Source: a virus | IMG/VR virus record: IMGVR_UViG_3300048785_000032 | Coordinates: 1 to 23,043 of that record | Length of the DNA: 23,043 nucleotides | Direction: 5' to 3' (one strand) | In this document: positions 5,388 to 22,085 of the stretch, in pieces | Layout: each line of letters begins with the position of its first letter | How positions within the stretch are numbered: position 1 is the stretch's first letter | Translations under genes and position numbers: made by a program | Notes under the pieces: generated by a model | Seen by the model: the letters and a program-made list of their open reading frames with translations, nothing else | Told to the model about the DNA's origin: nothing | Databases searched by the model: none

Positions 5388-5736
5388 TCTTGTCATCCTG
5401 CTTCAAGAGGTCCTCGATTCCTTGGCGAGGAGTGGCATCGAACCGGGGCTCATCAGGAGTGCCCATGTCAATGACACCGCTCATCACCACAAGGTATAGT
5501 TCCCCGGTGGCCGTGTCAAGTTCATAGACACCACCACCCCCGGATATACCCACAAGCGTAAATCGCCCAGGAGCCAATTTAAGCCCTTCCTGCTTCAAGG
5601 TGACATTGCCATCCACATTGACCGCAGGAGCCCCGGAAATGGCAGGTTCCGCCAGTTTCTTGACCACGCGGTCTACTGCCAAGCCTCCCAGCAGGACCAC
5701 AATGCACACGCAAATCCACGGTAGCGAATTCTTCAT
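5380..5736 (-). CDS. Membrane-anchored hypothetical protein
   Basis: A 118-residue protein with a hydrophobic N-terminal segment (WICVCIVVLLGGLAVDRVV, about residues 7-25) that should act as a signal anchor, followed by a beta-rich soluble domain with a Gly run (VGISGGGGVYELD) and an acidic C-terminus. No lipobox is obvious. A TGAGGTG site precedes the ATG, which overlaps the polymerase stop as ATGA, so the two are probably coupled. I do not recognise the domain; a small periplasmic or inner-membrane phage protein is the most that can be said. Confidence 0.65.
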   Translation of the reverse strand: MKNSLPWICVCIVVLLGGLAVDRVVKKLAEPAISGAPAVNVDGNVTLKQEGLKLAPGRFTLVGISGGGGVYELDTATGELYLVVMSGVIDMGTPDEPRFDATPRQGIEDLLKQDDKNG

Positions 5737-8546
5737 GCGAACACCTCAGATATCTCCCCCTCGGCACCCAGCTTCATCCCCTGCCCCCACTCGGGGGCAG
5801 TAGAAAGGACTTCGATACACTGGTTCATGCACTCCTTTGCGTCCTTGGCGGCAGTCACGGTGACGATGGAGTCATGCACGTGGTATGCCACGTTCCACCC
5901 AGCTTGCTCCGCAGCCCAGACTCCTTCAGCAAGAATGTCGCGGGAGATAGCCTGTACGATGTTTTCCACGAGTAGTCCGCCGTACAGCTTCTTTCCTTTG
6001 CCGTAGCCGTAAACCCATTCGAGTCTGGTTCCACCTCGCCCGTTGTCCACCTTATTTCCTGCCCGCACGTTGGGGTAGTGAATGACTCGTCCGGACGGCA
6101 GGGTGACATCCACCCCTCCCTTGCCCCGGCTAAAGAGCACCCCATTGACCATACGCTGTGCTCCTTCCCGAGCCCGGTGGAAGGCCGTATCGACCCGGCC
6201 CCAGAGGGCTGTGATGTTGGTGTACTTCTTGCGGTATTGCTTGACGAGAGAAACACACTTGTCCGTGGTGAGTTCTCCCGTCTCAAACAACGCACGGACA
6301 TCGGGTGAAGCACGCTGGTTCTTCTCGAACTTCGGAGCACCCATAGAGTTGTGGGCTATGAACGGGCCTGCCTGATAACAGCGATTACTCCCGGCAAGAA
6401 CAATGTCGTACACGTCTGTTTTGTATATTCTCAGAAGCGGTGACAAAACGGAGATTCCCCCGCTCATAGTGCCCGTTATTATCCCTTCTATCGAGTTGGA
6501 GGCGGGGGTTTTCCGCTCCGGGAAGGGACCGCACGTGTCCGATGAAATCTGCTTTTGACATCCGAAGTTCGATTCCCCTTCCGCCGTAATTGTGGTAGTC
6601 CTTGTCAGTTGGATTGTTGATTCTCTTGTTGACGTTGTGCCACATAACGAGCCATCTTCGGCTATCCTTAGCAGAAAGCCCATACTTCCTGGGTTGTCCT
6701 CCTTGCTGGCCCGCACGGCTATTGGCACATTTCCTACACTCAACACTCCGTCCTCTCTGTAGTTTATCTGGGCGAACGCCCGAGCGTTCGCCACACCAGC
6801 ATCGTACTGGAATACGCCTTTCGATCCCGACGTAATACTCAGTGCCGGTAACTGTCCATCTTCCGTACCGTGTGCCCTTAACGGGACAAGCATACCCCCG
6901 CTTGAAGCGATTTCCCCGACGCTTCGCCACCCGCTCTCGCACAATAACAGATGCTGAGGAGTCAACGCGATGCCGCCCCATATAATGACCTCTTTCTTTC
7001 CTGAGTAGACAGAGCCACTGTGTGATACGAACGCACGGCCATCCCATACTGTATCCGTTGGGCGGACGTTTTCGATTGCCTTCCACCCCGTGTCGGTGAG
7101 AATCGGAGTGCCCTTAGCGAGGCAGTATCCGAGACCCAGCACGGTTGCTTTCCCGACATTGCGGAGCAGCTTAAACCGGATCGCCTTGGGCTTAGGGTCA
7201 GTGTCCTTAGGCTTCCGAACTTCCTCGCTGAAGGCTTCACTCGCAAAAGAAGAGTAGACATCTTCACCACTCCCGAAAGCATCCACAAGATCCTGCTGCT
7301 GAGCCCACCAGGCCAGCACGCGAGCTTCAATGTTGGCGGCATCGACCGCCACGAACTTCTTACCTTTGCCAGGAACAACGCAGGCCCGAATCAGTGCCGC
7401 GACCTCACGCTCGAACTCATCCGGCGACCGAGTGGGATTCGGGAAGTTGTGAGCATTGAGCCCACTGCCGCCCGACCACCGGCCCGTGCCCGCCCCCCAG
7501 TAGTTCAGATAGACCCGGAAACCGCCCAGTCGCGAACACAGGAGCAATGTCCGCAACCGGGCGATTTGGGTATCACCCGACCGCTTCGCGAGTCGGGCTT
7601 GCACAAGTGAACTGACGATTATGTTCGGGCAGGACTTCAAGGCCATGAAACCCTCATCCTGCTTGGCCAGTGCCGGGATCAAGCCCTTCTTGCCCATCTT
7701 CATCGGCATCCTGATGCCAGTCTTCTTCAGCACCTGGATGAATGCTTGGCCGAACTGAGGATTACTGGCGAGGACCTCTTCATTCACCACCCGCTTATCT
7801 TCCATCTTCTCCTTGTACTTCACGCCCTTCTTTGTCCGGGACTTCTCCCACTTGAAGACAAAGGGGATCTTCGGCAAGGACCTGATCTTAGACTTCACGT
7901 TCTTCTCGATCCGGTCGGCAGAGGACTTGCACAGAGGAGCCCGCACTTCCAAGGGCTTGTCCACGTAGATCCGCAAGGTGTGGTCGATAAGCCAAAGCTC
8001 GAACTCCGGCCGAGTCATCTGGGGCAGCAGAGCTAGGAGAATGTGACGGGTCAGATCCGCGTCATTGCGGGCATAGGTTGCCAGGGCCAAAGCCTTATCT
8101 GGCGGCAGATCATACAGGCCCTTGAACTGCTCGATCTTCCCCTTGGGCTGGAGCTTGAGTCTCTCGGCGACCGATTCCAAGTCATTCCCACCGCTCACCT
8201 CGGCGGGCCCGTACACTGCATTGGCCATGAACAACGTGTCCAGCATGAAGCGGGGAACGAAACTGTATCGTAGTCGCCAGATTAACGCGTCGAACGTCAT
8301 CTTGTGGTTGACAAACGTATGGGACTTGTACGATTTTAACCATTTCGGAATGTCCTCCCCGACAATGAAGTCGGTCTTGCCATTGGGATAAGCCACACCG
8401 ATGCCGTGGGCCTTGAACCGGCGGTCCTGGATGTACTCCTCCGTGCGATAGCCCTTCCCGTTCCGCAGCAGGTGGAAGGTGTCATCGTAGAAGGTCTCGA
8501 AGTCGGTCACCACGTACTTCTTGTCGTCGAACTGTCCGTACTTCAT
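5733..8546 (-). CDS. polA: Family A DNA polymerase with 3'-5' exonuclease, interrupted by an intein
   Basis: The 937-codon frame encodes a polymerase of about 678 residues once a 259-residue intein is removed. The exonuclease domain shows DFE (Asp15, Glu17), FVNHKMTFDALIW (Asp86) and YARNDAD (Tyr158, Asp162). The polymerase domain has motif A VDAANIEARVLAW (Asp402), motif B R-x3-K...GLGY (Lys466, Tyr474) broken by the intein and resuming SMGAPKF, and motif C VHDSI (His891, Asp892). Aligned by eye with E. coli Pol I, the Phe762 position is Leu470, a variant common in environmental viruses and proposed to mark slower, often temperate, replication. There is no 5'-3' nuclease domain. GGAGAAAGCC precedes the ATG. 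It should be the replicative enzyme of this phage. Confidence 0.95.
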   Translation of the reverse strand: MKYGQFDDKKYVVTDFETFYDDTFHLLRNGKGYRTEEYIQDRRFKAHGIGVAYPNGKTDFIVGEDIPKWLKSYKSHTFVNHKMTFDALIWRLRYSFVPRFMLDTLFMANAVYGPAEVSGGNDLESVAERLKLQPKGKIEQFKGLYDLPPDKALALATYARNDADLTRHILLALLPQMTRPEFELWLIDHTLRIYVDKPLEVRAPLCKSSADRIEKNVKSKIRSLPKIPFVFKWEKSRTKKGVKYKEKMEDKRVVNEEVLASNPQFGQAFIQVLKKTGIRMPMKMGKKGLIPALAKQDEGFMALKSCPNIIVSSLVQARLAKRSGDTQIARLRTLLLCSRLGGFRVYLNYWGAGTGRWSGGSGLNAHNFPNPTRSPDEFEREVAALIRACVVPGKGKKFVAVDAANIEARVLAWWAQQQDLVDAFGSGEDVYSSFASEAFSEEVRKPKDTDPKPKAIRFKLLRNVGKATVLGLGYCLAKGTPILTDTGWKAIENVRPTDTVWDGRAFVSHSGSVYSGKKEVIIWGGIALTPQHLLLCESGWRSVGEIASSGGMLVPLRAHGTEDGQLPALSITSGSKGVFQYDAGVANARAFAQINYREDGVLSVGNVPIAVRASKEDNPGSMGFLLRIAEDGSLCGTTSTRESTIQLTRTTTITAEGESNFGCQKQISSDTCGPFPERKTPASNSIEGIITGTMSGGISVLSPLLRIYKTDVYDIVLAGSNRCYQAGPFIAHNSMGAPKFEKNQRASPDVRALFETGELTTDKCVSLVKQYRKKYTNITALWGRVDTAFHRAREGAQRMVNGVLFSRGKGGVDVTLPSGRVIHYPNVRAGNKVDNGRGGTRLEWVYGYGKGKKLYGGLLVENIVQAISRDILAEGVWAAEQAGWNVAYHVHDSIVTVTAAKDAKECMNQCIEVLSTAPEWGQGMKLGAEGEISEVFA
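6348..7124 (-). other. Intein in the polymerase O-helix (motif B)
   Basis: Residues 475-733 of the polymerase frame form a self-splicing intein. Block A is CLAKGTPILTDTGWKAI with the nucleophile Cys475; block B is IALTPQHLLL with the TPxH histidine (His532); block F is DVYDIVLAG (711-719); block G is FIAHN ending in His732-Asn733, followed by Ser734 as the +1 nucleophile. All residues needed for splicing are present. It interrupts the dNTP-binding helix immediately after Tyr474, so unspliced protein should be inactive. The stretch between about residue 545 and 700 shows no domain in this frame: it is Ser/Thr/Gly-rich and coincides with the HNH gene written in another frame. The splicing domains alone would amount to a mini-intein. 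Confidence 0.9.
6385..6981 (-). CDS. HNH homing endonuclease encoded out of frame inside the intein
   Basis: A 198-residue protein in a different frame of the same strand as the polymerase. Start 6981 is chosen because AGAGGT lies six bases upstream; the ATG falls inside intein block B and the TAA (6385-6387) falls between blocks F and G. The N-terminal module KGTRYGRWTV...RCWCGERSGV...LQRGRSVECRKC (35-85) has paired cysteines (61, 63, 82, 85) like the N-terminal zinc module of phage HNH/AP2-type endonucleases. The C-terminal module WHNVNKRINNP...YHNYGGRGI (114-137) and LDRRDNNGHYERGNLRFVT (163-181) with IQNRR is a typical phage HNH nuclease. Such enzymes cut intein-less alleles so the element spreads. 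It should be translated independently from the polymerase mRNA; a free-standing product is inference. Confidence 0.85.
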   Translation of the reverse strand: MGRHRVDSSASVIVRERVAKRRGNRFKRGYACPVKGTRYGRWTVTGTEYYVGIERRIPVRCWCGERSGVRPDKLQRGRSVECRKCANSRAGQQGGQPRKYGLSAKDSRRWLVMWHNVNKRINNPTDKDYHNYGGRGIELRMSKADFIGHVRSLPGAENPRLQLDRRDNNGHYERGNLRFVTASENIQNRRVRHCSCRE

Positions 8547-9130
8547 GGCTTTCTCCGCGACCGAGTAGAGACCATCAGGATTCCCAGACCAACTAGGAAT
8601 CCCACAATGGTCACGTATGGTGACTCAGGCACAATGATCGTAGCGGGCGTGACAGTGCCTGTCAAGCCCAGCACGCCATCCAACTCGGCCCCCGTGAAGT
8701 CCGTATTGTTGAGAGTCGCACCAGTAAAGTCACTGCCGAACAGCGTGGCGTAGGCAAAGGAGGTGTTGGTCAGATTGGCTTCCTGGAAGGACATGTGCCC
8801 TTGGATCACCAGGGCATTCTGATTCACCCAAGAGAAGTTGGCTCCCGTGAGATTGGCGTTGAAGAAGTTGGCGTTGTAGCTGACGAATCCCTGCCCGCTC
8901 AGCGTAGCTCCCGCCAGATCGGCGTGAGACAGATCGGACAGGCCGAAGTTTACGCCCACCAGATTCTTATTCCGGAAGTCAGCGTACTCTAGGTTCATCG
9001 ACGAGAAGTCCGCCCCCGGTCCGATGGTTTTCGTGGTGATCACCTGCCCTGTCATCCAATTCGTGACAGTGGCGGCAGCAGGGGAAGCCAGTGCGGCCAG
9101 GAGCAGCAGGGGTAAGGTACGCTTTATCAT
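8543..9130 (-). CDS. Secreted pentapeptide-repeat protein with PEP-CTERM-like C-terminus
   Basis: A 195-residue protein. Residues 1-20 are a Sec signal peptide (IKRTLPLLLLAALASPAAA). Residues about 40-152 are pentapeptide repeats of the A(D/N)L/F type (ADFSS, ADLAG, ANLTG, SDFTG, TDFTG, AELDG), which fold as a right-handed quadrilateral beta-helix. The end, VPES followed by a hydrophobic segment (VTIVGFLVGLGILMV) and TRSRRKP, has the three-part layout of a PEP-CTERM exosortase signal, although PES replaces PEP. GGAGATACA precedes the ATG; the stop overlaps the polymerase start as ATGA. An exported, surface-sorted protein in a replication operon looks like a cargo gene that alters the host envelope; this is inference. 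Confidence 0.8.
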   Translation of the reverse strand: MIKRTLPLLLLAALASPAAATVTNWMTGQVITTKTIGPGADFSSMNLEYADFRNKNLVGVNFGLSDLSHADLAGATLSGQGFVSYNANFFNANLTGANFSWVNQNALVIQGHMSFQEANLTNTSFAYATLFGSDFTGATLNNTDFTGAELDGVLGLTGTVTPATIIVPESPYVTIVGFLVGLGILMVSTRSRRKP

Positions 9131-9201
9131 TGTATCTCCATTTGACAGTGTGAAGTCTCGACGTTATACTCTATATCCGTTAGGGGTCGGGGATATAGCC
9201 C

Positions 9202-9483: not shown

Positions 9484-9555
9484 CATGATCGGCAGGAGTC
9501 GAACCTGCATTACCTTGGGCAGCCACGCCGAGTCCTACCATTAGACGACGATCAT
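9484..9555 (-). tRNA. tRNA-like element (isotype not determinable)
   Basis: On the minus strand 71 bases fold like a tRNA: ATGATCG pairs perfectly with CGATCAT (7-bp acceptor), GTCT-AATGGTA-GGAC is a canonical D arm with the GG pair, and GCAGG-TTCGACT-CCTGC is a canonical T arm. The 23 bases between D and T arms match the normal length, but I cannot form a standard five-pair anticodon stem with a U33 loop; the best alternatives keep only three pairs. There is no encoded CCA. It may be a degenerate tRNA, a tRNA mimic, or a tRNA whose anticodon arm I misread. Confidence 0.5.
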
Positions 9556-10189: not shown

Positions 10190-10417
10190 TCAAATGTGAA
10201 CATTGTCTCTAACGAAACACCACGCGATGTTTCCGCTGGGCAAGTAGCCGCTTACCATGTCCCCACTCCATCCGCAAGCAGCCCGAAATCTACTAGCAGC
10301 GACACCATGGCCTTTATCAGCAGGATAGAATACCCGCTTCATCCCTTCCGCTCGTGCCGATATCCTGGCTGGTAGTGTCGCGGTCGGTGCGTGGAATCTT
10401 GTCTCGATCGCTTTCAT
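10190..10417 (-). CDS. Small conserved-type phage protein
   Basis: A 75-residue protein starting MKAIETRFHAPTATLPARISA and ending with a GW...GYLPSGNIAWCFV segment. This layout (a short MKAI head, an ARI.A segment, a C-terminal strand pair) resembles small uncharacterised proteins seen in many phage early regions, but I cannot assign a function. AAGGAGTTCTC precedes the ATG, the same leader as the downstream gene. A TTGACT / TAGAGT pair 16 bases apart lies about 20 bases upstream as a weak promoter candidate. Confidence 0.6.
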   Translation of the reverse strand: MKAIETRFHAPTATLPARISARAEGMKRVFYPADKGHGVAASRFRAACGWSGDMVSGYLPSGNIAWCFVRDNVHI

Positions 10418-10459
10418 GAGAACTCCTTTGGTTATACTCTACCTCGGATTCGGCGAGAG

Positions 10460-10723
10460 TCAAACGCATTGTCCAAATTTCTTGAGCTTGCGTGCCTTGA
10501 TCCGTTCTCGGACCCTGACTTGACGCGTACGTTCTGCCGCGAAGAGCAGGAAGGATTCGACGGGGACCATGTACTCGTTTGGACCACCACGCCGCTTCCC
10601 TTTTTGGCGGATGACAATCGAGTCGAACCGCCTCTCAGCAATGGCGGGGACCAAGCCGACGATCCAATCCCTGCCGCCAAAGGATAAGGAACGGTACACA
10701 AGTTTTGTCAGTGGCGTTGCCAT
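10460..10723 (-). CDS. Hypothetical basic protein
   Basis: An 87-residue protein, basic at the C-terminus (RVRERIKARKLKKFGQ), with a central RQKGKRRGGPNEYMVPVESF segment. I do not recognise it. A GAGAAGCGATC stretch, weaker than most sites here, precedes the ATG. Two other frames are open across the same DNA; this one is chosen because of its start context and because its composition resembles neighbouring small genes. Confidence 0.5.
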   Translation of the reverse strand: MATPLTKLVYRSLSFGGRDWIVGLVPAIAERRFDSIVIRQKGKRRGGPNEYMVPVESFLLFAAERTRQVRVRERIKARKLKKFGQCV

Positions 10724-10756
10724 GATCGCTTCTCAAAAAGGACAATTCACTCATCA

Positions 10757-10778
10757 CCGCACCGTCCTAACGGTGCGG
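10757..10778. terminator. Perfect 9-bp hairpin between small genes
   Basis: CCGCACCGT, loop CCTA, then ACGGTGCGG form a perfect stem. There is no T-run on either strand, so a classical intrinsic terminator is doubtful; it may be an RNA processing or stabilising element. It lies between the end of a 27-codon frame (10792) and the next start (10723). Confidence 0.4.
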
Positions 10779-10791
10779 GGGGAAAGAACTG

Positions 10792-10875
10792 TCAACCGCA
10801 GACATCACCTTGGCAATTGGCCACACTTGCCGCTGCCTGATTATACACTCTCAGGATGTTTTGTTCCGCTTGCAT
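10792..10875 (-). CDS. Possible 27-residue peptide
   Basis: A short frame begins with ATG at 10875, seven bases after a good GAGGAG site, and ends TGA at 10792. The peptide begins MQAEQNILRVYNQ and ends with two cysteines (CQGDVC). It fits exactly between the HNH gene stop and a hairpin, and its leader resembles those of the neighbouring small genes (CCTTTTGAGGAG). No homology can be claimed; support is only the ribosome site and position. Confidence 0.4.
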   Translation of the reverse strand: MQAEQNILRVYNQAAASVANCQGDVCG

Positions 10876-10886
10876 GATGTTACTCC

Positions 10887-11309
10887 TCAAAAGGGAACTG
10901 GCTCAAGTCCAGCCTGAGACTCAGCGTAGTCAAGGTAATTCTTGGAATTCACTTGGATAGACTGCTGGTAGGCTTCGGGATGCTTTCCCGCATTCTCGAT
11001 CGGCTTCTTGGCTTCCAAGTGCTCAGGATTGCAGCAAGCCCTCTGATGGCATTTATGATCCACGTCACGCCCAGCCGGAGTAACGCCCCGTAGAGACGCG
11101 TAAGCGATCCGGTGGACAAACCGCTTCGCACCGTTGTACTTGCACTCGCCATACCCGTCGGTGTCCAATCGGCCGAGCCAGATCCAGCATGGCGTGGTGA
11201 AGCCAGTATCGACGTGGGTACAATGGCGAAGGATTCTACGCCACTGGACATTGGTTGGCGTGGGATACGCAATCCCTTGGCGACGAGGACGATAGTCGGG
11301 ACAAGTCAT
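10887..11309 (-). CDS. Free-standing HNH endonuclease
   Basis: A 140-residue HNH nuclease of the phage homing-endonuclease type. Signatures are CWIWLGRLDTDGYG (41-54), the His-Arg pair in VHRIAYASL (65-73), the HNH core DVDHKCHQRACCNPEHLEA (82-100, with His85, Cys87, Cys92, Cys93, His97) and the trailing ENAGKH. TTAGGAGCATTACC precedes the ATG. It lies among small unknown genes rather than inside an intron that I can identify, so it is probably a mobile free-standing endonuclease. It belongs to a different HNH subtype from the intein-embedded one. Confidence 0.88.
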   Translation of the reverse strand: MTCPDYRPRRQGIAYPTPTNVQWRRILRHCTHVDTGFTTPCWIWLGRLDTDGYGECKYNGAKRFVHRIAYASLRGVTPAGRDVDHKCHQRACCNPEHLEAKKPIENAGKHPEAYQQSIQVNSKNYLDYAESQAGLEPVPF

Positions 11310-11462: not shown

Positions 11463-11795
11463 TTATTCCACAAATGCGACATTCACTTCTGAGACTTCTA
11501 ATAGGGCACAATCCTGCCTGAATGCTCCGCGGATGAATCGGGCGATTTCTTGAACCGAGTACGCCAGGGCCTCATCATCAAAGACGGTGTAGATCAAGCC
11601 CGACTCGTGGATGAGTTTTTCATCTTGGAGCCATCCGCCCTCGATTCCCTGTACCGTGAATCCACCACACCAACGCGATAGAGTCTCGCCGACGAATTGC
11701 TCCGCATCCGTGTTCATGGCAGCGGAACGGATCGCACTGTCATATTTCTTCTTTCCGTTCCGGACACAGCCAACTGTCACAACGATCTTACGCAT
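11463..11795 (-). CDS. Hypothetical protein
   Basis: A 110-residue protein with start 11795 preceded by AAAGGAGTATCCCTC. The N-terminus KIVVTVGCVRNGK is beta-like; the middle contains a TVQGIEGGWLQDEK segment and FDDEALAYSVQEIARFI helix, ending acidic. I do not recognise a family. It is the first gene after the gene-free repeat region and follows a promoter and a very stable leader hairpin, so it probably opens a transcription unit. Confidence 0.65.
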   Translation of the reverse strand: MRKIVVTVGCVRNGKKKYDSAIRSAAMNTDAEQFVGETLSRWCGGFTVQGIEGGWLQDEKLIHESGLIYTVFDDEALAYSVQEIARFIRGAFRQDCALLEVSEVNVAFVE

Positions 11796-11821
11796 GAGGG
11801 ATACTCCTTTAAGGGGTTAAC

Positions 11822-11841
11822 GCTTGCCCCGTAGGGCAAGC
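11822..11841 (-). promoter_or_regulatory. 5'-leader hairpin with UACG tetraloop
   Basis: GCTTGCCC and GGGCAAGC form a perfect 8-bp stem. On the leftward transcript the loop is UACG closed by C-G, an exceptionally stable UNCG tetraloop. It lies 27 bases upstream of the start of the 11463-11795 gene and downstream of a promoter candidate. The same 18-base core (CTTGCCCTACGGGGCAAG) recurs in inverse orientation at 14881-14898 in the leader of the RNase H gene. Confidence 0.6.
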
Positions 11842-11866
11842 TTGATGCTCAAGCGATCATACAGGA

Positions 11867-11894
11867 AACATACCCCCACTATCGTCGCGGTCAA
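11867..11894 (-). promoter_or_regulatory. Sigma70-type promoter candidate
   Basis: On the minus strand TTGACC (11889-11894) is separated by 16 bases from TATGTT (11867-11872). It would start transcription about 40 bases before the leader hairpin and read into the small-gene and replication cluster. Confidence 0.45.
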
Positions 11895-11996
11895 GAGAAT
11901 ACTTGAAAGAATTGTCATATCATGATGCGTGACTATAGATCGCCATGAATATAGGACGTGAGCCAGGATGAGCCTGATATCGGACACCGAAGACGA

Positions 11997-12044
11997 GGGG
12001 GAAGACTAGGGGGAAGACTAGGGGGAAGACTAGGGGGAAGATGA
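11997..12044. repeat. 12-bp tandem repeat, 3 perfect and 1 partial copies
   Basis: The unit GGGGGAAGACTA occurs at 11997-12008, 12009-12020 and 12021-12032, followed by GGGGGAAGATGA at 12033-12044. The strand is almost pure purine apart from one C and one T per unit. Confidence 0.9.
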
Positions 12045-12046
12045 GA

Positions 12047-12093
12047 GGGAATACGGGCACAACAAGACTGGGGGAATACCGGCACAACAAGAC
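12047..12093. repeat. Two 22-bp direct repeats with 25-bp period
   Basis: Positions 12047-12068 and 12072-12093 are identical except for one base (GGGAATACG versus GGGAATACC, both followed by GGCACAACAAGAC). They directly follow the 12-bp repeats and share their G-run plus AA beginning. Confidence 0.88.
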
Positions 12094-12395
12094 GCCCATA
12101 TGAAGACGAACGTGATCGCACCACATCCCAATCCCCTCCCTGACTACAACTGTAGTAACGCCATACCCAGTCTGTCTGAGGAGCAACTATACATAAGATA
12201 TGTTCTCGGTCCTTGCTCCCCCCTCGCGTCTGCTAATGCAGGCCCTCCTCCCATCACTGCATGGCATGTTATCAGACCCCCCCGGTACTACCCTGCCCCT
12301 GCCGAGCCTCACCCCTGAATCCAGCCTATGCTGCTCACAGCCGTTGTATTTTCCCCACATGTACCCATCTCCATACCACCCCATAATCACAGCAC

Positions 12396-12644
12396 TTAGA
12401 GCTTCTTCGACCTGTGACCCCTCTTCACAGAAGACTGAGCTTTGTGCGACTTGGGCGGCAGTGGGAGTTTGCGAGGATGCTGCTTCACGTACTCAGCGTG
12501 GAGTTCGACCCGTCTGCGGACCTCATCCAGCCCGATCTGATCCCACTGATTCCAGGTGTCCATCTCCGTAAAGCCTGCTTCAGAAAGCGAAGAGGCCCCT
12601 TGCGGGGCCTGCTGCTTGGACTTCGAGGCGTTAGCCTTTGGCAT
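12396..12644 (-). CDS. Small basic hypothetical protein
   Basis: An 82-residue protein with start 12644 preceded by AAGGGAGTTCTACA. The N-terminus is low-complexity (KANASKSKQQAPQG), the middle is an acidic, Trp-containing helix (DTWNQWDQIGLDEVRRRVELH), and the C-terminus is strongly basic (KSHKAQSSVKRGHRSKKL). No family recognised. Its start overlaps the end of the upstream gene by 14 bases. It ends just before the gene-free repeat region. Confidence 0.6.
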   Translation of the reverse strand: MPKANASKSKQQAPQGASSLSEAGFTEMDTWNQWDQIGLDEVRRRVELHAEYVKQHPRKLPLPPKSHKAQSSVKRGHRSKKL

Positions 12645-12879
12645 TGTAGAACTCCCTTCGCATCTTGGCGTTCATGGCAATCGTTCCACCAGCCCCCCTG
12701 CCGACCGATGGAGTGTTGGTCTTCTTCACGCTGGTCTTTCCCCCGGCTCTGTACTCGGCCAGGTAGTTGGACTGCCAGGCTTCATACTCTGCGTTGAGAG
12801 CAGCGTAGGCCGGACTGGTGTGGTTCACGGTGCGTAGGATGCGGAACTTCTCCGGGGCTTCCCTGTAGACAATCCTCAT
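12631..12879 (-). CDS. Hypothetical protein
   Basis: An 82-residue protein with a GGGAGGCCACT site before its ATG and an ATGA overlap with the upstream glycosyltransferase-like gene. It contains a helical Tyr/Ala-rich middle (AALNAEYEAWQSNYLAEYRAG) and a Lys/Thr/Gly-rich flexible C-terminus ending KMRREFYNAKG. Nothing identifies its function; the operon position suggests it may accompany the preceding enzyme. Confidence 0.6.
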   Translation of the reverse strand: MRIVYREAPEKFRILRTVNHTSPAYAALNAEYEAWQSNYLAEYRAGGKTSVKKTNTPSVGRGAGGTIAMNAKMRREFYNAKG

Positions 12880-13556: not shown

Positions 13557-14134
13557 TGTGCAACCTCTTTTCGTATGTAGTTAATTACAACTGTTGAGTG
13601 CGGGATGTCGTTATGGCTTCCAGGGACTGGGATTGGAGTAGTCCCCTGGATTACTGCCACCCATGGCCCGAACCAGTCTGTCCTGGTAAATACAGTGACC
13701 TTGCCCGCATTGGCAGGCAAGTCCGTGCCACCACTGCCATAGGCCACAGGGTCTATCAGGATCACTTCCTGGATATGGACGGCAGGGAGGGCTTTGCAGG
13801 CATCAAGTACGGCCTGTCCCCCGAAGGAATGGCCAACCAGGATGATCTGGTCGGACTCGTGCCCCTTGATTTCAGCCGCGATGTCCAGCTTGTAGCCATC
13901 CCACGAGGAGGCAGAGACGACTGTGGCGTCGGAGTTGGACAGAGCAGCAGTGATGTCCTTCATCTGGGATTCACCCAGGCCACCCACGATGACCACCAGC
14001 ACATGACCGGACTGGCGGCTGGTCACTTCCACTAGGTCGCACCTGGCACAGAACATGGCTGCGATTACCATAAGAAAAAAAGCAGACACCTCAAACACAG
14101 TGTCCCGTATTATCATATCCTTGATGCTTCCCAC
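13553..14134 (-). CDS. Membrane-anchored alpha/beta hydrolase (lipase/esterase-like)
   Basis: A 193-residue protein. The start is the GTG at 14134 because AAGGAGG lies four bases before it; the ATG at 14116, which overlaps the RNase H stop as ATGA, is the alternative. Residues about 12-32 form a transmembrane segment (VFEVSAFFLMVIAAMFCA). The soluble part shows a nucleophile elbow ILVGHSFGGQAV (Ser103), an acidic residue in LIDPVAYG (Asp128) and a histidine near the end (GSHNDIPHSTV, His174 or His179), the alpha/beta-hydrolase triad in the right order. It has no lid domain and is shorter than most lipases. It would act at the inner membrane or in the periplasm on an unknown ester or peptide. 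Its position between RNase H and a glycosyltransferase-like gene suggests accessory cargo. Confidence 0.78.
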   Translation of the reverse strand: MGSIKDMIIRDTVFEVSAFFLMVIAAMFCARCDLVEVTSRQSGHVLVVIVGGLGESQMKDITAALSNSDATVVSASSWDGYKLDIAAEIKGHESDQIILVGHSFGGQAVLDACKALPAVHIQEVILIDPVAYGSGGTDLPANAGKVTVFTRTDWFGPWVAVIQGTTPIPVPGSHNDIPHSTVVINYIRKEVAQ

Positions 14135-14859
14135 TTGGCCTCCTTTTCGAGTTCGGCAGCAGTAAAGGCTTTGGCCCGGTCACGATAGTGAGGACCCATC
14201 AGATCGGCTTCAGTGATGTCCTCGTAGTTCTCCCGGCGACCGATCTTGCCCAGGAACGAGGCTGTAGACCCGAAGATCCGCTGGAGGCGGTACTCGTTCT
14301 GGCACTTTCTGGTGGCCCACCAGTATTGCATCAACGCCGCGTGACGGCGGCTGATCTTCCTACGAACCCGCGTAGACAGGTCGATCTCCAATTCTTTGGG
14401 CGGCAGGACTGGTTCGGTCGGATGTTTTGAGAGGTAGTCCGCTCGGGTGTTTTCTTCCCGGTGGACGTGGGTCAGTTTGAATGATGTGAACAATTCCTTC
14501 AGCCCGATAGATTCTTCGCAGAGAATTCTCAGGTGATTCTCCGAGATCTTCCAGCGACCAGCGACTTGCTGGACCACGATGAGTGCATCCGAGAAGACTT
14601 GGACGTGAGTGACTCCCAGCTTCAGGGCCTCACGTAGAGAAGCGTTGAGAGCCTGGTACTCGGCCACGTTGTTGGTTCCTTCTCCTAGGACGTAGCCATA
14701 GTCGATGTTAAAATATTTCTCATCCGGGTCGGTGAGTTCGATGTGGAAACCGATTCGCATGTCTCCGGGATTTTCTGGACAAGATCCGTCGCAGTGAATG
14801 ACTCCCCTGCCGCCCACTGGAGCAGGAGTGTCTTTGGAAATGACTGGCCACCTCAACAT
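14113..14859 (-). CDS. rnhA: Ribonuclease HI with C-terminal extension
   Basis: A 248-residue protein; ATG 14859 is chosen over a GTG at 14865 because AGAGG sits five bases before it. Residues 17-145 are an RNase HI fold with all four catalytic acids: Asp24 in IHCDGSC, Glu67 in NNVAEYQAL, Asp91 in VFSDALIV and Asp141 in ENTRADYLS. It degrades RNA in RNA-DNA hybrids, so it likely removes primers in a phage whose polymerase lacks the 5'-3' nuclease domain. About 100 extra residues follow, basic then acidic, which I do not recognise. It is the first gene of the leftward operon, following a strong promoter and a leader hairpin. Confidence 0.92.
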   Translation of the reverse strand: MLRWPVISKDTPAPVGGRGVIHCDGSCPENPGDMRIGFHIELTDPDEKYFNIDYGYVLGEGTNNVAEYQALNASLREALKLGVTHVQVFSDALIVVQQVAGRWKISENHLRILCEESIGLKELFTSFKLTHVHREENTRADYLSKHPTEPVLPPKELEIDLSTRVRRKISRRHAALMQYWWATRKCQNEYRLQRIFGSTASFLGKIGRRENYEDITEADLMGPHYRDRAKAFTAAELEKEAKWEASRI

Positions 14860-14878
14860 GATCACCTCTTCTTGGATT

Positions 14879-14900
14879 AACTTGCCCTACGGGGCAAGTT
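14879..14900 (-). promoter_or_regulatory. 5'-leader hairpin of the RNase H operon
   Basis: AACTTGCCC and GGGCAAGTT form a perfect 9-bp stem with a four-base loop, 20 bases before the RNase H start. Its core is the 18-base sequence CTTGCCCTACGGGGCAAG on the plus strand, the inverse of the hairpin at 11822-11841. Confidence 0.6.
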
Positions 14901-14904
14901 GATT

Positions 14905-14934
14905 GAGTCTTCTAGGACTCTTTAATATAGAGTC
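14905..14934. repeat. Alternating GAGTC/GACTC inverted repeats
   Basis: GAGTC (14905-14909), GACTC (14916-14920) and GAGTC (14930-14934) allow two mutually exclusive small stems in the leader of the leftward operon. They could be operator half-sites or alternative RNA folds. Confidence 0.4.
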
Positions 14935-14945
14935 GAAAAGACAAC

Positions 14946-14975
14946 GTAAAAAACTTAGCTGACGCAGTTTTTTAC
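14946..14975. promoter_or_regulatory. Perfect A/T-rich palindrome downstream of the leftward promoter
   Basis: GTAAAAAACT (14946-14955) and AGTTTTTTAC (14966-14975) are perfect inverted repeats with a ten-base spacer, about 23-52 bases into the leftward transcript. The 3' arm ends in a U-run, so it could attenuate transcription; as DNA it could equally be an operator for a dimeric repressor. Confidence 0.55.
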
Positions 14976-15004
14976 TGGGTCTTTTCTCTCACTAGTGTAT
15001 ATAT

Positions 15005-15034
15005 ATTATATGGGATCTTTGGAGTGCTTGTCAA
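15005..15034 (-). promoter_or_regulatory. Strong leftward promoter (sigma70-type)
   Basis: On the minus strand TTGACA (15029-15034) and TATAAT (15005-15010), both perfect consensus, are 18 bases apart. It would drive the RNase H operon through a structured leader of about 130 bases. Confidence 0.8.
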
Positions 15035-15150
15035 GCGTTATTGAAGAAAATTCTGGAAAATTTCTGAAGATTTTTTTACTGAAATGGATCAAGTGGTAGG
15101 GGGTTTGTCAAGGGCTTGGTGGCAGGGCTCAGAAATATTTTGCAGAGTGC

Positions 15151-15179
15151 TTGCAACGGGTCTTCCGTTCTGCTATAAT
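15151..15179 (+). promoter_or_regulatory. Strong rightward promoter (sigma70-type)
   Basis: TTGCAA (15151-15156), 17 bases, then TATAAT (15174-15179). It lies back to back with the leftward promoter and would transcribe the tRNA-like element and the packaging genes. About 160 bases of untranslated sequence follow before the first start codon. I see no gene in 14866-15338. Confidence 0.75.
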
Positions 15180-15245
15180 TTATAAGGCGTCGAAAAAGAG
15201 AATATCGCCCTCACACGGCTGACTCACCTTCGTCGCCCGGCAGGA

Positions 15246-15335
15246 TCTCAGGAAGCCAGAGAATTCGGTCATGGACCGCAAGGCAAGGCGGCCCGATAAA
15301 AAGGGAAGATCGCGGGTTCAACTCCCGCCCTGAGT
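15246..15335 (+). tRNA. tRNA-like element, degenerate or class II
   Basis: GCGGG-TTCAACT-CCCGC (15312-15328) is a canonical T arm. The following CCTGAG pairs with CTCAGG at 15247-15252, giving a six-pair acceptor stem over a 90-base span, the length of a class II tRNA. The 15253-15311 segment contains the hairpin CGGTC-ATG-GACCG but no D or anticodon arm I can draw in standard form. It may be a decayed tRNA, a tRNA mimic or a captured host tRNA end. It overlaps the leader of the small-terminase-like gene. Confidence 0.4.
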
Positions 15336-15338
15336 TTT

Positions 15339-15920
15339 ATGAAACGAACGAGCCACACTACGAAAAAGAAGCATCCCCGCCGTGAAGCCCTAGTCGGTCT
15401 CACGCCAGAGGATGTAATCAAATCCATGACAGAGGATGCATCCCATGGGCGTCGAGTGCAAAAAGTGCGGTCGGAAGACAAGCTCGAAAAAGGACCTGTA
15501 CTGCAAGCCGTGCGGACGCAGGATTCTGAAACGGCAGGAAAAGGTGGGCTACCTGGAGCCGTTGACCACGATGACAATCAACGGCCCCGTTCAGTTGTCC
15601 GCGAAAAGATTCCTGACGATTCAAAGTCCTCACAAATCTCACGTGTCCTGAAGAGGCTCTTGGGAGAAGCCCCTCCAGAACTCGTGGAGTATGGGGTGTC
15701 TGGCGGGAGCGTGCCCACGAACGCAGAGGCACTGGCCGCTGTGATTCTCAAGGCCGCTCTGGACGGGAAGCAGTGGGCCGTGGAATTGATTCGCGATGGA
15801 ACGGAAGGCAAACCCATCCGTGCTGCTCAGGTGAATACGAGCGGGGCAGAGGTAGAGGAGCAATTGGATCGGATTTCTACGATGCGGCTGAATGAGTTGG
15901 CCAAGGTATTAACAAAATGA
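15339..15920 (+). CDS. Small terminase-like protein; true start uncertain
   Basis: The frame has an ATG at 15339 and encodes up to 193 residues. The last 95 residues (VLKRLLGEAPPELVEYG, PTNAEALAAVILKAALDGK, AVELIRDGTEGKP) resemble the small terminase subunits that sit two genes before the large subunit here and recognise phage DNA for packaging. The region from about residue 36 to 90 looks non-coding in this frame (poor third-position GC) and coincides with a zinc-ribbon frame shifted by +1. No ribosome site precedes 15339. So the protein may begin later at a non-ATG codon near 15600-15660, or the two frames may be joined by frameshifting. Confidence 0.6.
   Translation: MKRTSHTTKKKHPRREALVGLTPEDVIKSMTEDASHGRRVQKVRSEDKLEKGPVLQAVRTQDSETAGKGGLPGAVDHDDNQRPRSVVREKIPDDSKSSQISRVLKRLLGEAPPELVEYGVSGGSVPTNAEALAAVILKAALDGKQWAVELIRDGTEGKPIRAAQVNTSGAEVEEQLDRISTMRLNELAKVLTK
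15445..15651 (+). CDS. Zinc-ribbon ORF overlapping the terminase-like frame
   Basis: A 68-codon frame, start 15445 (GAGG nine bases upstream). It has a clean zinc ribbon C-x2-C-x11-C-x2-C (ECKKCGRKTSSKK followed by LYCKPCGRRI) and a basic stretch after it, as in small DNA-binding proteins. Its codons have the GC-rich third positions expected for this genome, unlike the frame of the terminase-like gene across the same bases. The stop lies inside the region where the terminase-like homology begins. It may be a separate small protein or the N-terminal DNA-binding part of the small terminase. Confidence 0.55.
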   Translation: MGVECKKCGRKTSSKKDLYCKPCGRRILKRQEKVGYLEPLTTMTINGPVQLSAKRFLTIQSPHKSHVS

Positions 15921-17445: not shown

Positions 17446-19365
17446 ATGACACCGACTCCAGAGGCAGTGGCGGCATACCTGAAGCAGATCAAAGAGTGGC
17501 AGCAGCAAGACGGCGACTCAGTGATCTGCCCGGCTACAGGTTTGGAAATCCCGAAACTCCCTGCCGCCAATATCCTGTGGCGTAAGAAACTCCGCGATGC
17601 AGCGTTCGCCAGTGAGTGCGTGCAGCGTGACGTACGAGCCGCCTGTGCGGCCTCGTTCCCGTTTTGGGTGAATGCCTTCGGGTATACCTTCCACCAGAAG
17701 TGGACCAATGATGAGGGGGAAGACATAGCCGTAACCGGCGATGACTGCCACGTACCGTTCATCACGTGGAAGATTCAGGATGAGTCTGCGGCTACGCTGA
17801 TCTCGTGCATCACGCGGGGCGAAGACGCCTTGATCGACAAGTCACGCGACATGGGAGCATCGTGGTTAGTTATTGCCATATTTCAATGGATGTGGCAGTT
17901 CCAGCCCAACACCACGTTCCTAGAAGTATCCCGCAAGGAAATGTACGTTGACCGCCGGGGGAACATGGACTCCCTCTTCGAGAAGCACCGGTACATGACC
18001 AGGATGCAGCCAGTGTGGTTGCGGCCGAAGCGTATCCGGGACAACTCCATGATGCTGGAGAACCAGGACAACAACTCGGCCATCGTGGGCGAGAGCACGA
18101 ATGACGACGTAGGCCAGGGCGGAAGAAAGACTGCCATCCTTCTGGACGAGTTCGCTCGCGTGCGTAACGGCGAAGAGATCGACGTAGCCACGGCTGACAC
18201 CACGGCCTGCCGCATATTCAACAGCACAGTTAACGGGCCGGCCACCTGGTACACCCGGATCTACCGGGACATGAAGTCTGGTCGCCGCAAGGGGACGCTC
18301 ATAACGCTCCCGTGGGAAGCTCACCCCACAAAGGGACGGGGCCTTTCGATCATTGACGTGCCGCCGTCCCCCAAGAATCCAGTCGGGAAGAAGGCAATAT
18401 CCCCGTGGTACATCCACGAGGAAGCATCGCGTTCGGCTCGTGACCTGGCCCAGAACGTGGATCGTGACCACGGCAAGTCCGGAGACACCTTCTTCGATCC
18501 CCAGGAGGTCGAGGCTCATCGTGCAGCGTTCCAGGCCGATCCTATGGTGATGGGGAACCTGCTCTTTAATGAGGACCTGAACGAAGACGAACGGCTCAGC
18601 GTGTTTATCGGACGCGAGAACGAGGCAGTCAAGTTTGTCGAGGGTGGGGTGCGTAGAACGTGGCGTATCTGGTGCCCGCTGGTCAACGGCAGGCCGGATC
18701 AGTCGCACTCCTATGTGTTCGGCGTTGACGTGAGCATGGGAACCGGGTCCAGCAACTCGGTAATCAGCGTGTTCGACCATAACACCAACCAGAAGATCGC
18801 GGAATACTGCGACTCGTTTACACCACCTGAAGATCTGGCCTGGATGGTGACGATGGCCGCTGTCTGGTTTGGTGGTCGCACAACGAACCCGCTCCTCATC
18901 TGGGAGACGAACGGTCCTGGCTCCATCTTCGGGAAGAAGGTCATGGGATTCGGATACTCCCCGGTCTACTTCTCCAAGGTCGAAGGCCGGAAAACGTCCA
19001 AGCCCACGGAACGGTACGGCTGGAACTCCACTGCCGCCCGAAAGGAAATTCTGCTGGGAGAGTACCGGGATGCCCTGAAAAATGCCCGGTACATAAATCC
19101 GTGCAAGGAATCGCTTGATGAAGCGATTGATTACGTGTATAATGATAGAGGTGTGCTCCAGCCCGCCACAGCGGTGCGGGAGCAAGGCGGTGCTTCAGCG
19201 ACCCACGGTGATCGAGTCGTAGCAGACGCCTTGTGTGAGTACGGAAGAAAGGACTTGCCTAACGTAGTTGTTGCCTTGCCCGTAGCTCCCCGAAACAGTT
19301 TTGCCGGTCGTCGTGACGAGCAACGCCACATGATGCGGTCGGAGAAAGAGGCGTGGTCAAAGTGA
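17446..19365 (+). CDS. terL: Large terminase subunit
   Basis: A 639-residue packaging motor protein with ATPase and nuclease domains. The N-terminal ATPase has a Walker A variant DKSRDMGASW (131-140; the R-x2-G-x-S form typical of many phage terminases), Walker B ILLDEFA (231-237, Asp234, Glu235) and a coupling motif STVNG (260-264). The RNase H-like nuclease shows VFGVDVSMG (Asp428), IWETNGPG (Glu487) and THGDRVVADAL (Asp589). It cuts concatemers and pumps DNA through the portal encoded 630 bases downstream. AAGGATAACC precedes the ATG. Length is slightly above the usual 450-600 because of an extended N-terminus. Which packaging strategy it uses cannot be told from the sequence. Confidence 0.93.
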   Translation: MTPTPEAVAAYLKQIKEWQQQDGDSVICPATGLEIPKLPAANILWRKKLRDAAFASECVQRDVRAACAASFPFWVNAFGYTFHQKWTNDEGEDIAVTGDDCHVPFITWKIQDESAATLISCITRGEDALIDKSRDMGASWLVIAIFQWMWQFQPNTTFLEVSRKEMYVDRRGNMDSLFEKHRYMTRMQPVWLRPKRIRDNSMMLENQDNNSAIVGESTNDDVGQGGRKTAILLDEFARVRNGEEIDVATADTTACRIFNSTVNGPATWYTRIYRDMKSGRRKGTLITLPWEAHPTKGRGLSIIDVPPSPKNPVGKKAISPWYIHEEASRSARDLAQNVDRDHGKSGDTFFDPQEVEAHRAAFQADPMVMGNLLFNEDLNEDERLSVFIGRENEAVKFVEGGVRRTWRIWCPLVNGRPDQSHSYVFGVDVSMGTGSSNSVISVFDHNTNQKIAEYCDSFTPPEDLAWMVTMAAVWFGGRTTNPLLIWETNGPGSIFGKKVMGFGYSPVYFSKVEGRKTSKPTERYGWNSTAARKEILLGEYRDALKNARYINPCKESLDEAIDYVYNDRGVLQPATAVREQGGASATHGDRVVADALCEYGRKDLPNVVVALPVAPRNSFAGRRDEQRHMMRSEKEAWSK

Positions 19366-19997: not shown

Positions 19998-22085
19998 ATG
20001 AACCCGAATTCAAAACTGACCCCTCAGAACATGAGCAAGCTCATCACTGTTTCGTTTGCGAAGACGGAGCATCTGAAACGTGCCCGTGGGAAATTCCTAA
20101 GTCAATACTCCGGACGTTTCTGGGCGAGGTCAAAACCGGGTGACGCAGAAGAGCGTAAGGCTTCTCCGATTAATCTCATCTATCAGGCCGTGAACACACT
20201 CATTCCCAATCTGGTTTTCCGTGACCCCAAGTTCAAGGTCCGGTCCAACGTGCTAGCATATCGCGGCTATGCTGACATGATGGAACTGGCCATGAACAAC
20301 TTGGCCTTGAGCATTCATCTGCGGAAGGAACTGCGGATGATGATCGTTGACTCTCTTTTCTTTGCAGCCTTCTGCAAAACCGGGATTGCTTCTACAGGTC
20401 AGTTCATCACGATGGATGACCAGAGCATCGCGGTGGGAGAACCATTCGCCCAGAGAGTCGATCCCGACGATATGATCATTGACCCGCTCGCAAAGACGTG
20501 GGATCAGCAAATGATCGTGGGAAACAGGTTCCGCGTGCTCCGGCAGGATATGCTGGACAGCGGACTGTACGACAACGATCTCGTTAAGAATTTAGGGTCA
20601 CGCACTGACAACAAGTCGGTGTTTGAAGCAGCGTATATGTCTGGAGACAAGTCTGGGGAACTTCGGGAAGTCATGGACTTTGTGGACCTTGCAGAGGTCT
20701 ACATCCCCAGAGATCAACGGGTGGTTACCATTCCGTGGACAAAAGACTTCATCGCGGAGAAGTACCTTCGCGATGTTGACTGGTCTGGCCCCAAGAACGG
20801 ACCCTACCACATGCTCGGGTACGCTTATGTGCCCGATAACATTCTCCCTATCCCACCCGTTTCGCTTTGGTACGATCTCCATATCATGGGGAATCGTATC
20901 GCCCGCAAGATCGCCCGCCAAGCTGACCGGCTGAAGCGAGTGCTCGCCTACGAAGGAAGTGCCATTCAGGACGCGGAGAACATCGCGGATGCTGATGACG
21001 GCGAGGCCATCAAGGTCAACAACCTAGGTGGTATCAAAGAGGTCAACTACGGAGGCACCACTGAGGACGCATACGGCTTCATGGAGTGGGTCGAGAAAAA
21101 GTTCTCGGACATCACCAACAATCTCGACATCATGTCGGGAGCATCCGCCGGAGCCCCCACTGCCACGCAGTCGGAAATGATGCAGAACAATTCCAGCGTC
21201 CGGCTGGCCGACCTCCAGAATATCGTGTACGATTTCACTCAGGAGATCGGACACGATCTGGCGTTCTTCCTACACACAGATCCCCTGATCGAACTGCCCC
21301 TCATTCAGCGTAAACAGGGCCAGGATCAGCAGGTCACGTACACCCCGGAAATGCGGCAGGGCCAGTTCTTCGACTACATCCTTGCCGTCCAACCCATGTC
21401 GATGTCGAAGCCCGATCCGAACATGAAGGTACAGCACCTTCTCCAGTTCGCCACTAACGTCATCCCGGCCGCTGCTCAGGCCGTGCAGATCTTGGGTCCA
21501 GCGTTCAAGGTTCAAGCCTTCCTGGAGCGTATCGCGAGCGAGATCGGCCTCGAAGAGTTCGACGAGATTATTGACGCCCCGACATTCCGCGAGTGGACCC
21601 TCACTAAACTGATCAGCGATATCGACCCGGCCAAAGCGGCCATGTTCGCCACTCAGCCCCCGATCAACCAGATGCCGTGGCAGCAGGGTGGTCAACAGCT
21701 TTCGATTCAGCAGCAGGTCCAGCAAGCAGCCCAGGCTCACCAGCAGGCTCAGCAGCAGGCCCAGCCCAAGGTAGATCCGCCGAAGATAAACATTTCGATT
21801 GACTTCTCTAAGCTGCCACTGGACATTCAGCAGCAGATCGAACACGCCATGAATTTGGCCCCATCCGCCACCGCTGCCGTCCAAGACACAAAGACCGGGA
21901 GTTCAAAGCCAACTCCTCAACCCCATATCAACGTAGGCCAGCCAAATCCCCATGGGCGGGGTCCTAACCCCGCCAGTGTCACTCCAGGCACGGAGAGTGC
22001 CCAAGCGGCTCAGCAGGTCGCTGGCCAGCTTCAGAGGGCCTATCCCACCGCGAGCGTCCAGGCCAGGGCACAGCAAGTTCAGTAG
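19998..22085 (+). CDS. Portal protein
   Basis: A 695-residue protein downstream of terL, of the size and layout of podovirus-like portal (head-to-tail connector) proteins. The N-terminal part has SPINLIYQAVNTLIPNLVF and the domain with RVDPDDMIIDPLAKTWDQ (about 155-172), a hallmark segment of portals; the stem and wing region includes NRIARKIARQADRLKR and ATQSEMMQNNSSVRLADLQ (about 393-411). The last 170 residues are Gln/Ala/Pro-rich (QQQVQQAAQAHQQAQQQA) and probably disordered or coiled, like a barrel. It forms the dodecameric ring through which DNA is pumped. The ATG at 19998 has only a weak AAAGAAG stretch before it. Confidence 0.85.
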   Translation: MNPNSKLTPQNMSKLITVSFAKTEHLKRARGKFLSQYSGRFWARSKPGDAEERKASPINLIYQAVNTLIPNLVFRDPKFKVRSNVLAYRGYADMMELAMNNLALSIHLRKELRMMIVDSLFFAAFCKTGIASTGQFITMDDQSIAVGEPFAQRVDPDDMIIDPLAKTWDQQMIVGNRFRVLRQDMLDSGLYDNDLVKNLGSRTDNKSVFEAAYMSGDKSGELREVMDFVDLAEVYIPRDQRVVTIPWTKDFIAEKYLRDVDWSGPKNGPYHMLGYAYVPDNILPIPPVSLWYDLHIMGNRIARKIARQADRLKRVLAYEGSAIQDAENIADADDGEAIKVNNLGGIKEVNYGGTTEDAYGFMEWVEKKFSDITNNLDIMSGASAGAPTATQSEMMQNNSSVRLADLQNIVYDFTQEIGHDLAFFLHTDPLIELPLIQRKQGQDQQVTYTPEMRQGQFFDYILAVQPMSMSKPDPNMKVQHLLQFATNVIPAAAQAVQILGPAFKVQAFLERIASEIGLEEFDEIIDAPTFREWTLTKLISDIDPAKAAMFATQPPINQMPWQQGGQQLSIQQQVQQAAQAHQQAQQQAQPKVDPPKINISIDFSKLPLDIQQQIEHAMNLAPSATAAVQDTKTGSSKPTPQPHINVGQPNPHGRGPNPASVTPGTESAQAAQQVAGQLQRAYPTASVQARAQQVQ

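Follow-up and report, generated by a model that had tools for sequence, protein, structure and literature searches.

A candidate control site with a conserved 26-bp core ahead of the early operon in a group of uncultivated tailed phages

The gene-free gap ahead of the early operon of an uncultivated tailed phage very probably contains a conserved cis-acting element, as judged from a 26-bp core that is retained in distantly related phages. We consider this gap most likely, though not proven, to be a control site at which copying of the phage DNA starts or the early genes are switched on, and assign a rough probability of 0.4 to the core region being the phage replication origin, possibly an RNA-primed one. 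The window analysed in this study spans an entire IMG/VR record (23,043 bases), which is classified as linear and represents a tailed-phage fragment; it is labelled G000 among its relatives.

Gene organization and composition of the gap

Leftward genes of the window run from 14,865 to 1, and rightward genes start at 15,339. The leftward set encodes RNase HI, an alpha/beta hydrolase, a glycosyltransferase-like protein, the products of several small genes, an intein-containing PolA, a PD-(D/E)XK nuclease, an ERF annealing protein, a DnaB-like helicase and a dGTP-hydrolase-like protein, while the rightward genes include those for TerL at 17,446 and the portal at 19,998. The gap sits between two leftward genes. 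The initial annotation had placed it near replication genes; these are indeed on the same strand, but they are not adjacent, the polymerase lying 3.3 kb and the DnaB-like helicase 9 kb downstream. The gene for RNase HI is located beside the gap in four phages.

The description of the stretch as gene-free was borne out. No ORF within 11,817–12,395 gained support from codon usage (all at or below 0 bits per codon, with −0.13 for a doubtful leftward ORF at 11,817–11,987), whereas the flanking upstream genes at 12,396–12,644 and 12,631–12,879 scored +0.15 and +0.27, respectively. The statement that the genome is otherwise tightly packed was too strong, since 14,866–15,338 and approximately 10,204–10,889 are also gene-poor. 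The abrupt switch from G-rich to C-rich sequence was found at approximately 12,076, where the change of G-to-C skew is the largest and sharpest of the contig (0.93 vs an SD of 0.19), as is the change of purine content. A second switch, back to normal composition, was detected at approximately 12,408, at a gene border, indicating a compositional island rather than a single genome-wide switch. The leftward promoter proposed in the gap was no better than chance (one found vs 1.3 expected in shuffled sequences). No covariance model of Rfam 15 matched the gap, and its RNA folding gave nothing better than shuffled sequences.

The repeats were then only partly as first described. The purine 12-mer, reported as repeated four times, belongs to a real tandem array, the highest-scoring one of the contig (TRF score 105 vs a maximum of 50 in 60 dinucleotide shuffles of the gap), but the unit GAAGACTAGGGG occurs exactly three times (12,001, 12,013 and 12,025) with variants on both sides, and is purine at 10 of its 12 positions. 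The array includes four G5 tracts and a quadruplex motif on the plus strand (11,997–12,037). Triplex formation seems improbable for the array, in which C and T interrupt the purines and no mirror homopurine tract is present. The 22-mer, given as present twice at a 25-bp period, was recovered at that spacing, with 21 of 22 positions identical. Neither repeat is a conserved feature: an exact pair of GAAGACTAGGGG units had no match in viral contigs, and both the 12-mer array and the 22-mer are missing from the gaps of all four relatives, all of them distant; the initial annotation had named absence from close relatives as evidence against its own reading. The repeat sequences differ in every relative, and tandem arrays above chance level are also present in the gap of G014. 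The array is probably a lineage-specific expansion within the control region.

The divergent intergenic region at 14,866–15,338 is AT-rich and carries a leftward promoter (TTGACA-18-TATAAT) and a rightward promoter (TTGCAA-17-TATAAT); no DNA-level conservation of this region was found between the relatives. Beside this divergent promoter, at 14,880–14,904, lies a hairpin with a C(UACG)G loop that is nearly identical to the one upstream of g11463 (Table 1). At approximately 15,225–15,337, on the plus strand, a T-arm-like sequence (GCGGGTTCAACTCCCGC) with complementary ends CTCAGG/CCTGAG directly precedes the gene beside terL, and may be a degenerate tRNA, for which ARAGORN made no call. A tRNA-like gene with an odd anticodon loop was also detected at 9484–9555 on the minus strand, untyped by ARAGORN but scoring 40 bits with the Rfam tRNA model.

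Conservation of the core among relatives

Four relatives were identified: three near-complete IMG/VR phages (TerL 44–52% identical), namely G001 (47.2 kb), G002 (42.0 kb) and G003 (39.5 kb), which share the gene set and gene order of the window (profile scans, TerL and RNase H), and one phage contig in a Planctomycetota MAG (TerL 39%), G014:C69, which was found by a scan of cellular genomes. Locus labels L091, L092 and L345 stand for G002, G003 and G014:C69, respectively. A match to the whole region at the DNA level was absent among 50,697 phages; scans of viral contigs with single proteins (glycosyltransferase-like, TerL and DnaB) gave none, and scans with the polymerase alignment returned distant polymerases only, none with this gene neighbourhood. 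In all four relatives, a gene-poor gap precedes the early operon.

Table 1. Features of the window that bear on the gap and its core
Feature	Position	Strand	Basis or remark
Gene-free leader region, upstream of the conserved g11463 gene	11796..12395	.	No coding signal; equivalent gaps in G001, G002, G003 and G014
26-bp core GGGTAGTACCGGGGGGGTCTGATAAC	12268..12293	-	23/26 in L345/G014; 21/26 in L091/G002; near-identity over the first 18 bases in L092/G003
Quadruplex-type G-tract motif overlapping the core	12277..12299	-	Pattern scan
G-run-rich segment, sense (leftward mRNA) strand	12115..12395	-	14 G3+ runs vs 0 C3+ runs in first 300 b of gap
12-bp tandem array, 5.6 copies of GAAGACTAGGGG, private to G000	11989..12055	+	TRF; shuffles; pattern scan
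22-bp repeat, copy 1	12047..12068	+	21/22 identical to copy 2
22-bp repeat, copy 2	12072..12093	+	25-bp spacing from copy 1
GTCYGATA motif, second copy	11978..11985	-	Motif enriched and strand-oriented in gaps
Weak sigma-70-like promoter TTGACC-16-TATGTT	11867..11894	-	9/12; not above chance
Hairpin with UACG-type loop, just upstream of g11463	11821..11842	-	Read directly from sequence
g11463, first early gene downstream in G000; SAM-lyase/DUF3574-like, ferredoxin-like fold (tentative)	11463..11795	-	Leave-one-out HMM and G001 hit
Family A DNA polymerase with intein	5733..8546	-	Operon downstream of gap
RNase HI	14113..14865	-	NCBIfam 1.8e-23; kept upstream of gap in G001–G003

On the early-operon strand, the core reads GGGTAGTACCGGGGGGGTCTGATAAC in G000, GGGTAGTACGGGTGGGGTCCGATAAC in G014 and GGGTCGTACCGGCTGGGTCCGATAGC in G002; the site of G003 reads GGGTGGTACCGGGGGGGT, followed by CTGATAA some 20 bases on. 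In G001, GGTCCGATAATAGG is present twice, at both contig ends, and the left half of the core is absent from the resolved sequence. Where found, the core occurs in one copy per genome and is always oriented toward the early genes. Its conservation at 21–23 of 26 positions in phages with TerL proteins only 39–44% identical, that is, almost letter for letter in distant relatives, argues for a real control site.

The specificity of the core was supported by several comparisons. With a matrix made from the three full sites, and hence circular for those three, the next-best score in 4.6 Mb of loci was half as high. A degenerate core pattern without mismatch had a single occurrence in each of three phages and none in 19 other genomes and records, and the reversed pattern, used as a control, had no match in the 22 genomes and records. 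In a non-circular pairwise test, five of ten pairs of gaps held a 26-base match above all 40 locally shuffled pairs; four of these matches are at the core (for G000/G003, at its left part) and one, between G002 and G003, at CCCCGACAATCTGWCGTNCC. The gap of the window reached 23/26 against the whole of L345, whereas neither 12 shuffled versions of the gap nor 15 control segments of the window exceeded 21. Searches with the core (56 b) gave no match in phages and a single chance-level match in plasmids (E 4). An occurrence of GTCCGATAA in an ORF of L345, at approximately 2,129, is part of coding DNA and was regarded as fortuitous.

Other short elements were noted in the gaps. The second element, CCCCGACAATCTGWCGTNCC, lies in the pyrimidine-rich half of the G002 and G003 gaps, is 22/26 identical between them and is absent in the window. 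The most gap-enriched 8-mer was GTCCGATA, with five of nine occurrences in gaps (counted on both strands in four genomes; uncorrected P=3e-9, 51 tests), a value to be read with the facts that it was chosen after inspection and that its tandem copies are not independent. Copies of GTCYGATA in the gaps share one common orientation.

An excess of G3+ over C3+ runs on the sense strand was observed in the first 300 b of four gaps, amounting to 14 in G000, 7 in G002, 12 in G003 and 8 in G014, which ranks in the top 0.2, 5.4, 1.8 and 0.3%, respectively, of their own genomes. Recurrence in four phages indicates that this asymmetry does not stem from the 12-mer. In G001, what is resolved of the gap is not G-rich.

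The early genes and the polymerase

In G000–G003, the gene directly downstream of the gap (one small ORF further in G001) belongs to one family, as indicated by leave-one-out searches of three members (E 2e-5 to 1e-9) and by an independent match in G001 (E 2.9e-12); the gene beside the gap of G014 is outside this family. The best Pfam values for the family, 0.003–0.005, are below the cut-off, and the top Foldseek match of g11463 is a phage SAM lyase (E 2e-3) with a model of low confidence (pLDDT 59), so that the label is tentative. The predicted resemblance to the SAM lyase/DUF3574 fold is offered as a lead and not as an identification. Among the Pfam families listed for the early genes of G001–G003 (25 of 34 families in one scan) are DnaB, ERF and PD-(D/E)XK; neither a primase nor an initiator is among those listed, and many small genes have no family.

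Within the polymerase gene, the intein at approximately 6276–7127 also encodes an HNH endonuclease in another frame of the same strand (ORF 6385–7086, minus strand; PHROG 8e-23). The same nested, out-of-frame arrangement was seen in the polymerase of Streptococcus phage Javan255. A hidden out-of-frame HNH insertion has been described in a phage methylase, there without a detectable intein (PMC11855218); unlike that case, the HNH frame in the polymerase of the window sits within a recognisable intein.

Replication origin and alternative readings

The earlier proposal that the gap is an origin or a regulatory hub stands in part: the place before the early operon, the strand asymmetry and the 26-bp core all recur in diverged phages, while the support first offered for it fell away, with repeats not conserved, a promoter at chance level and an array that is not homopurine, and the origin is unproven. 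In favour of an origin, the gap stands at the head of the replication operon. Because the window is the whole 23-kb fragment, the cumulative GC-skew check suggested in the initial annotation was extended to the genome-wide skew of the relatives. The minimum is within the gap in G001 and G014, 0.14 kb away in G002 and 0.37 kb away in G000, but G003 has a skew maximum at the gap, and the minimum of G001 shifts by 1 kb with the gap cut out; since gene orientation changes within 0–3 kb, the skew is confounded and cannot decide the origin. In G003, a perfect 53-bp tandem array (2.6 copies; 9016–9152) is present in the AT-rich divergent region, which looks at least as origin-like and would be a rival place for an origin or operator.

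Iteron-type phage and plasmid origins (lambda, P1 and RK2 type) resemble the gap in carrying direct repeats within non-coding DNA in the vicinity of replication genes, and in a short oriented motif, present up to four times in G002. The gap differs from them in that no initiator gene was found among the families listed for the early genes of G001–G003, the repeats are not conserved, DnaA boxes (TTATNCACA) are at most at background level and the G000 gap has no AT-rich unwinding segment (AT 41–56%). Several features are shared with the RNA-primed origins of ColE1 type or of mitochondrial CSB II, namely a sense strand rich in G runs, a G tract at the conserved core, a PolA-type polymerase, RNase HI encoded beside the gap and no primase among the listed families; this likeness is one of features, with no sequence similarity claimed, and RNase H could simply remove Okazaki primers. 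A G-rich non-template strand, as expected of an R-loop origin, was found in four of the five phages.

RNA priming would be the most likely form of an origin at this site, because the scanned early genes show RNase HI and PolA and, among the families listed, no primase or initiator. We infer every step of such an initiation. Leftward transcription through the gap would produce an RNA with many G runs in its first approximately 300 nt; at the conserved core (GGGTRGTACCGG-nn-GGGTCYGATAAC), this RNA may remain hybridized to the C-rich template, or a protein of the phage may bind, and the strands would open. After trimming by the phage RNase HI, the RNA would be elongated by the PolA-type polymerase of the phage, while the DnaB-like helicase would load onto the exposed strand, with the private tandem repeats downstream being auxiliary or neutral expansions. 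The full form of this proposal, a tailed-phage group that lacks its own primase and initiator and uses a G-rich transcript at the 26-bp core with a dedicated phage RNase HI, as in a ColE1/CSB II-like origin, appears distinctly unlikely.

The core and the GTCYGATAA motifs might instead be DNA or leader-RNA sites that control early transcription only, with no start of replication. The position of the gap directly before the g11463 family gene in four phages, the single orientation of every motif copy and a convincing sigma-70 promoter in the G001 gap (TTGACA-17-GATACT) are consistent with such a role, as is the precedent of T3, in which the SAM lyase is produced before any other protein (PMC8406200). 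However, 300–630 b separate the core from the first gene downstream, no promoter or terminator accompanies it consistently, promoter scores in most gaps do not exceed chance, the gap-side gene of G014 is not a member of the g11463 family, and neither an RNA family match nor a stable fold was obtained. We regard control of the early operon alone as somewhat unlikely, though a serious rival to an origin. The gap also recalls the left end and early region of T7/T3-like phages, with short tandem repeats before an early operon that starts with a SAM lyase-like (anti-restriction-type) gene; a difference is that no terminal repeat was found here.

That resemblance, a SAM-lyase-like gene at an end, also bears on a packaging or genome-end site (cos or pac), at which terminase would cut or bind the core and the gap would join the early and late ends of the virion DNA. 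Like a cos site, the core is unique, asymmetric and conserved between the early and late arms; the phages that share it are best conserved in their terminase, the late genes are oriented away from the side of the gap, and the contig of G001 ends inside the gap, within a 49-bp repeat. A cos site usually adjoins the small terminase gene. In G000–G003, however, the divergent region and one to five leftward genes lie between the gap and the gene beside terL, and the gap adjoins the divergent late operon in G014 only; G002 was assembled as a circle across the gap, and G001 is the sole contig ending there. A packaging site is unlikely, but likewise a serious rival. That the gap is relaxed spacer, with strand slippage in DNA devoid of function producing the repeats and skew, and composition making the gaps look alike, would agree with the 12-mer and 22-mer being private to G000. 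Against this, the core matches in four pairs exceed all shuffles that keep local composition, each time in the equivalent gap, and the divergent promoter regions, equally non-coding, gave no pair above shuffles (0/6). As an account of the whole gap, relaxed spacer is quite improbable; it is largely refuted for the core and stands for the 12-mer array. An overlooked short protein-coding gene is extremely improbable: ORFs of 60–70 codons cross the core in G000, G002 and G003, but they are in different frames and without codon-usage signal, and in G000 and G014 a stop codon interrupts frame 0 within the core.

With a single genome to work from, the control and origin sites of an uncultivated phage can hardly be located. 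An element of 26 bases kept at up to 88%, where the best-conserved protein is down to 39% identity, provides a testable anchor for the start of the life cycle in this phage group. If the element is indeed an origin primed by RNA, with an RNase H of the phage serving it, it would represent an unusual replication start for a tailed phage.
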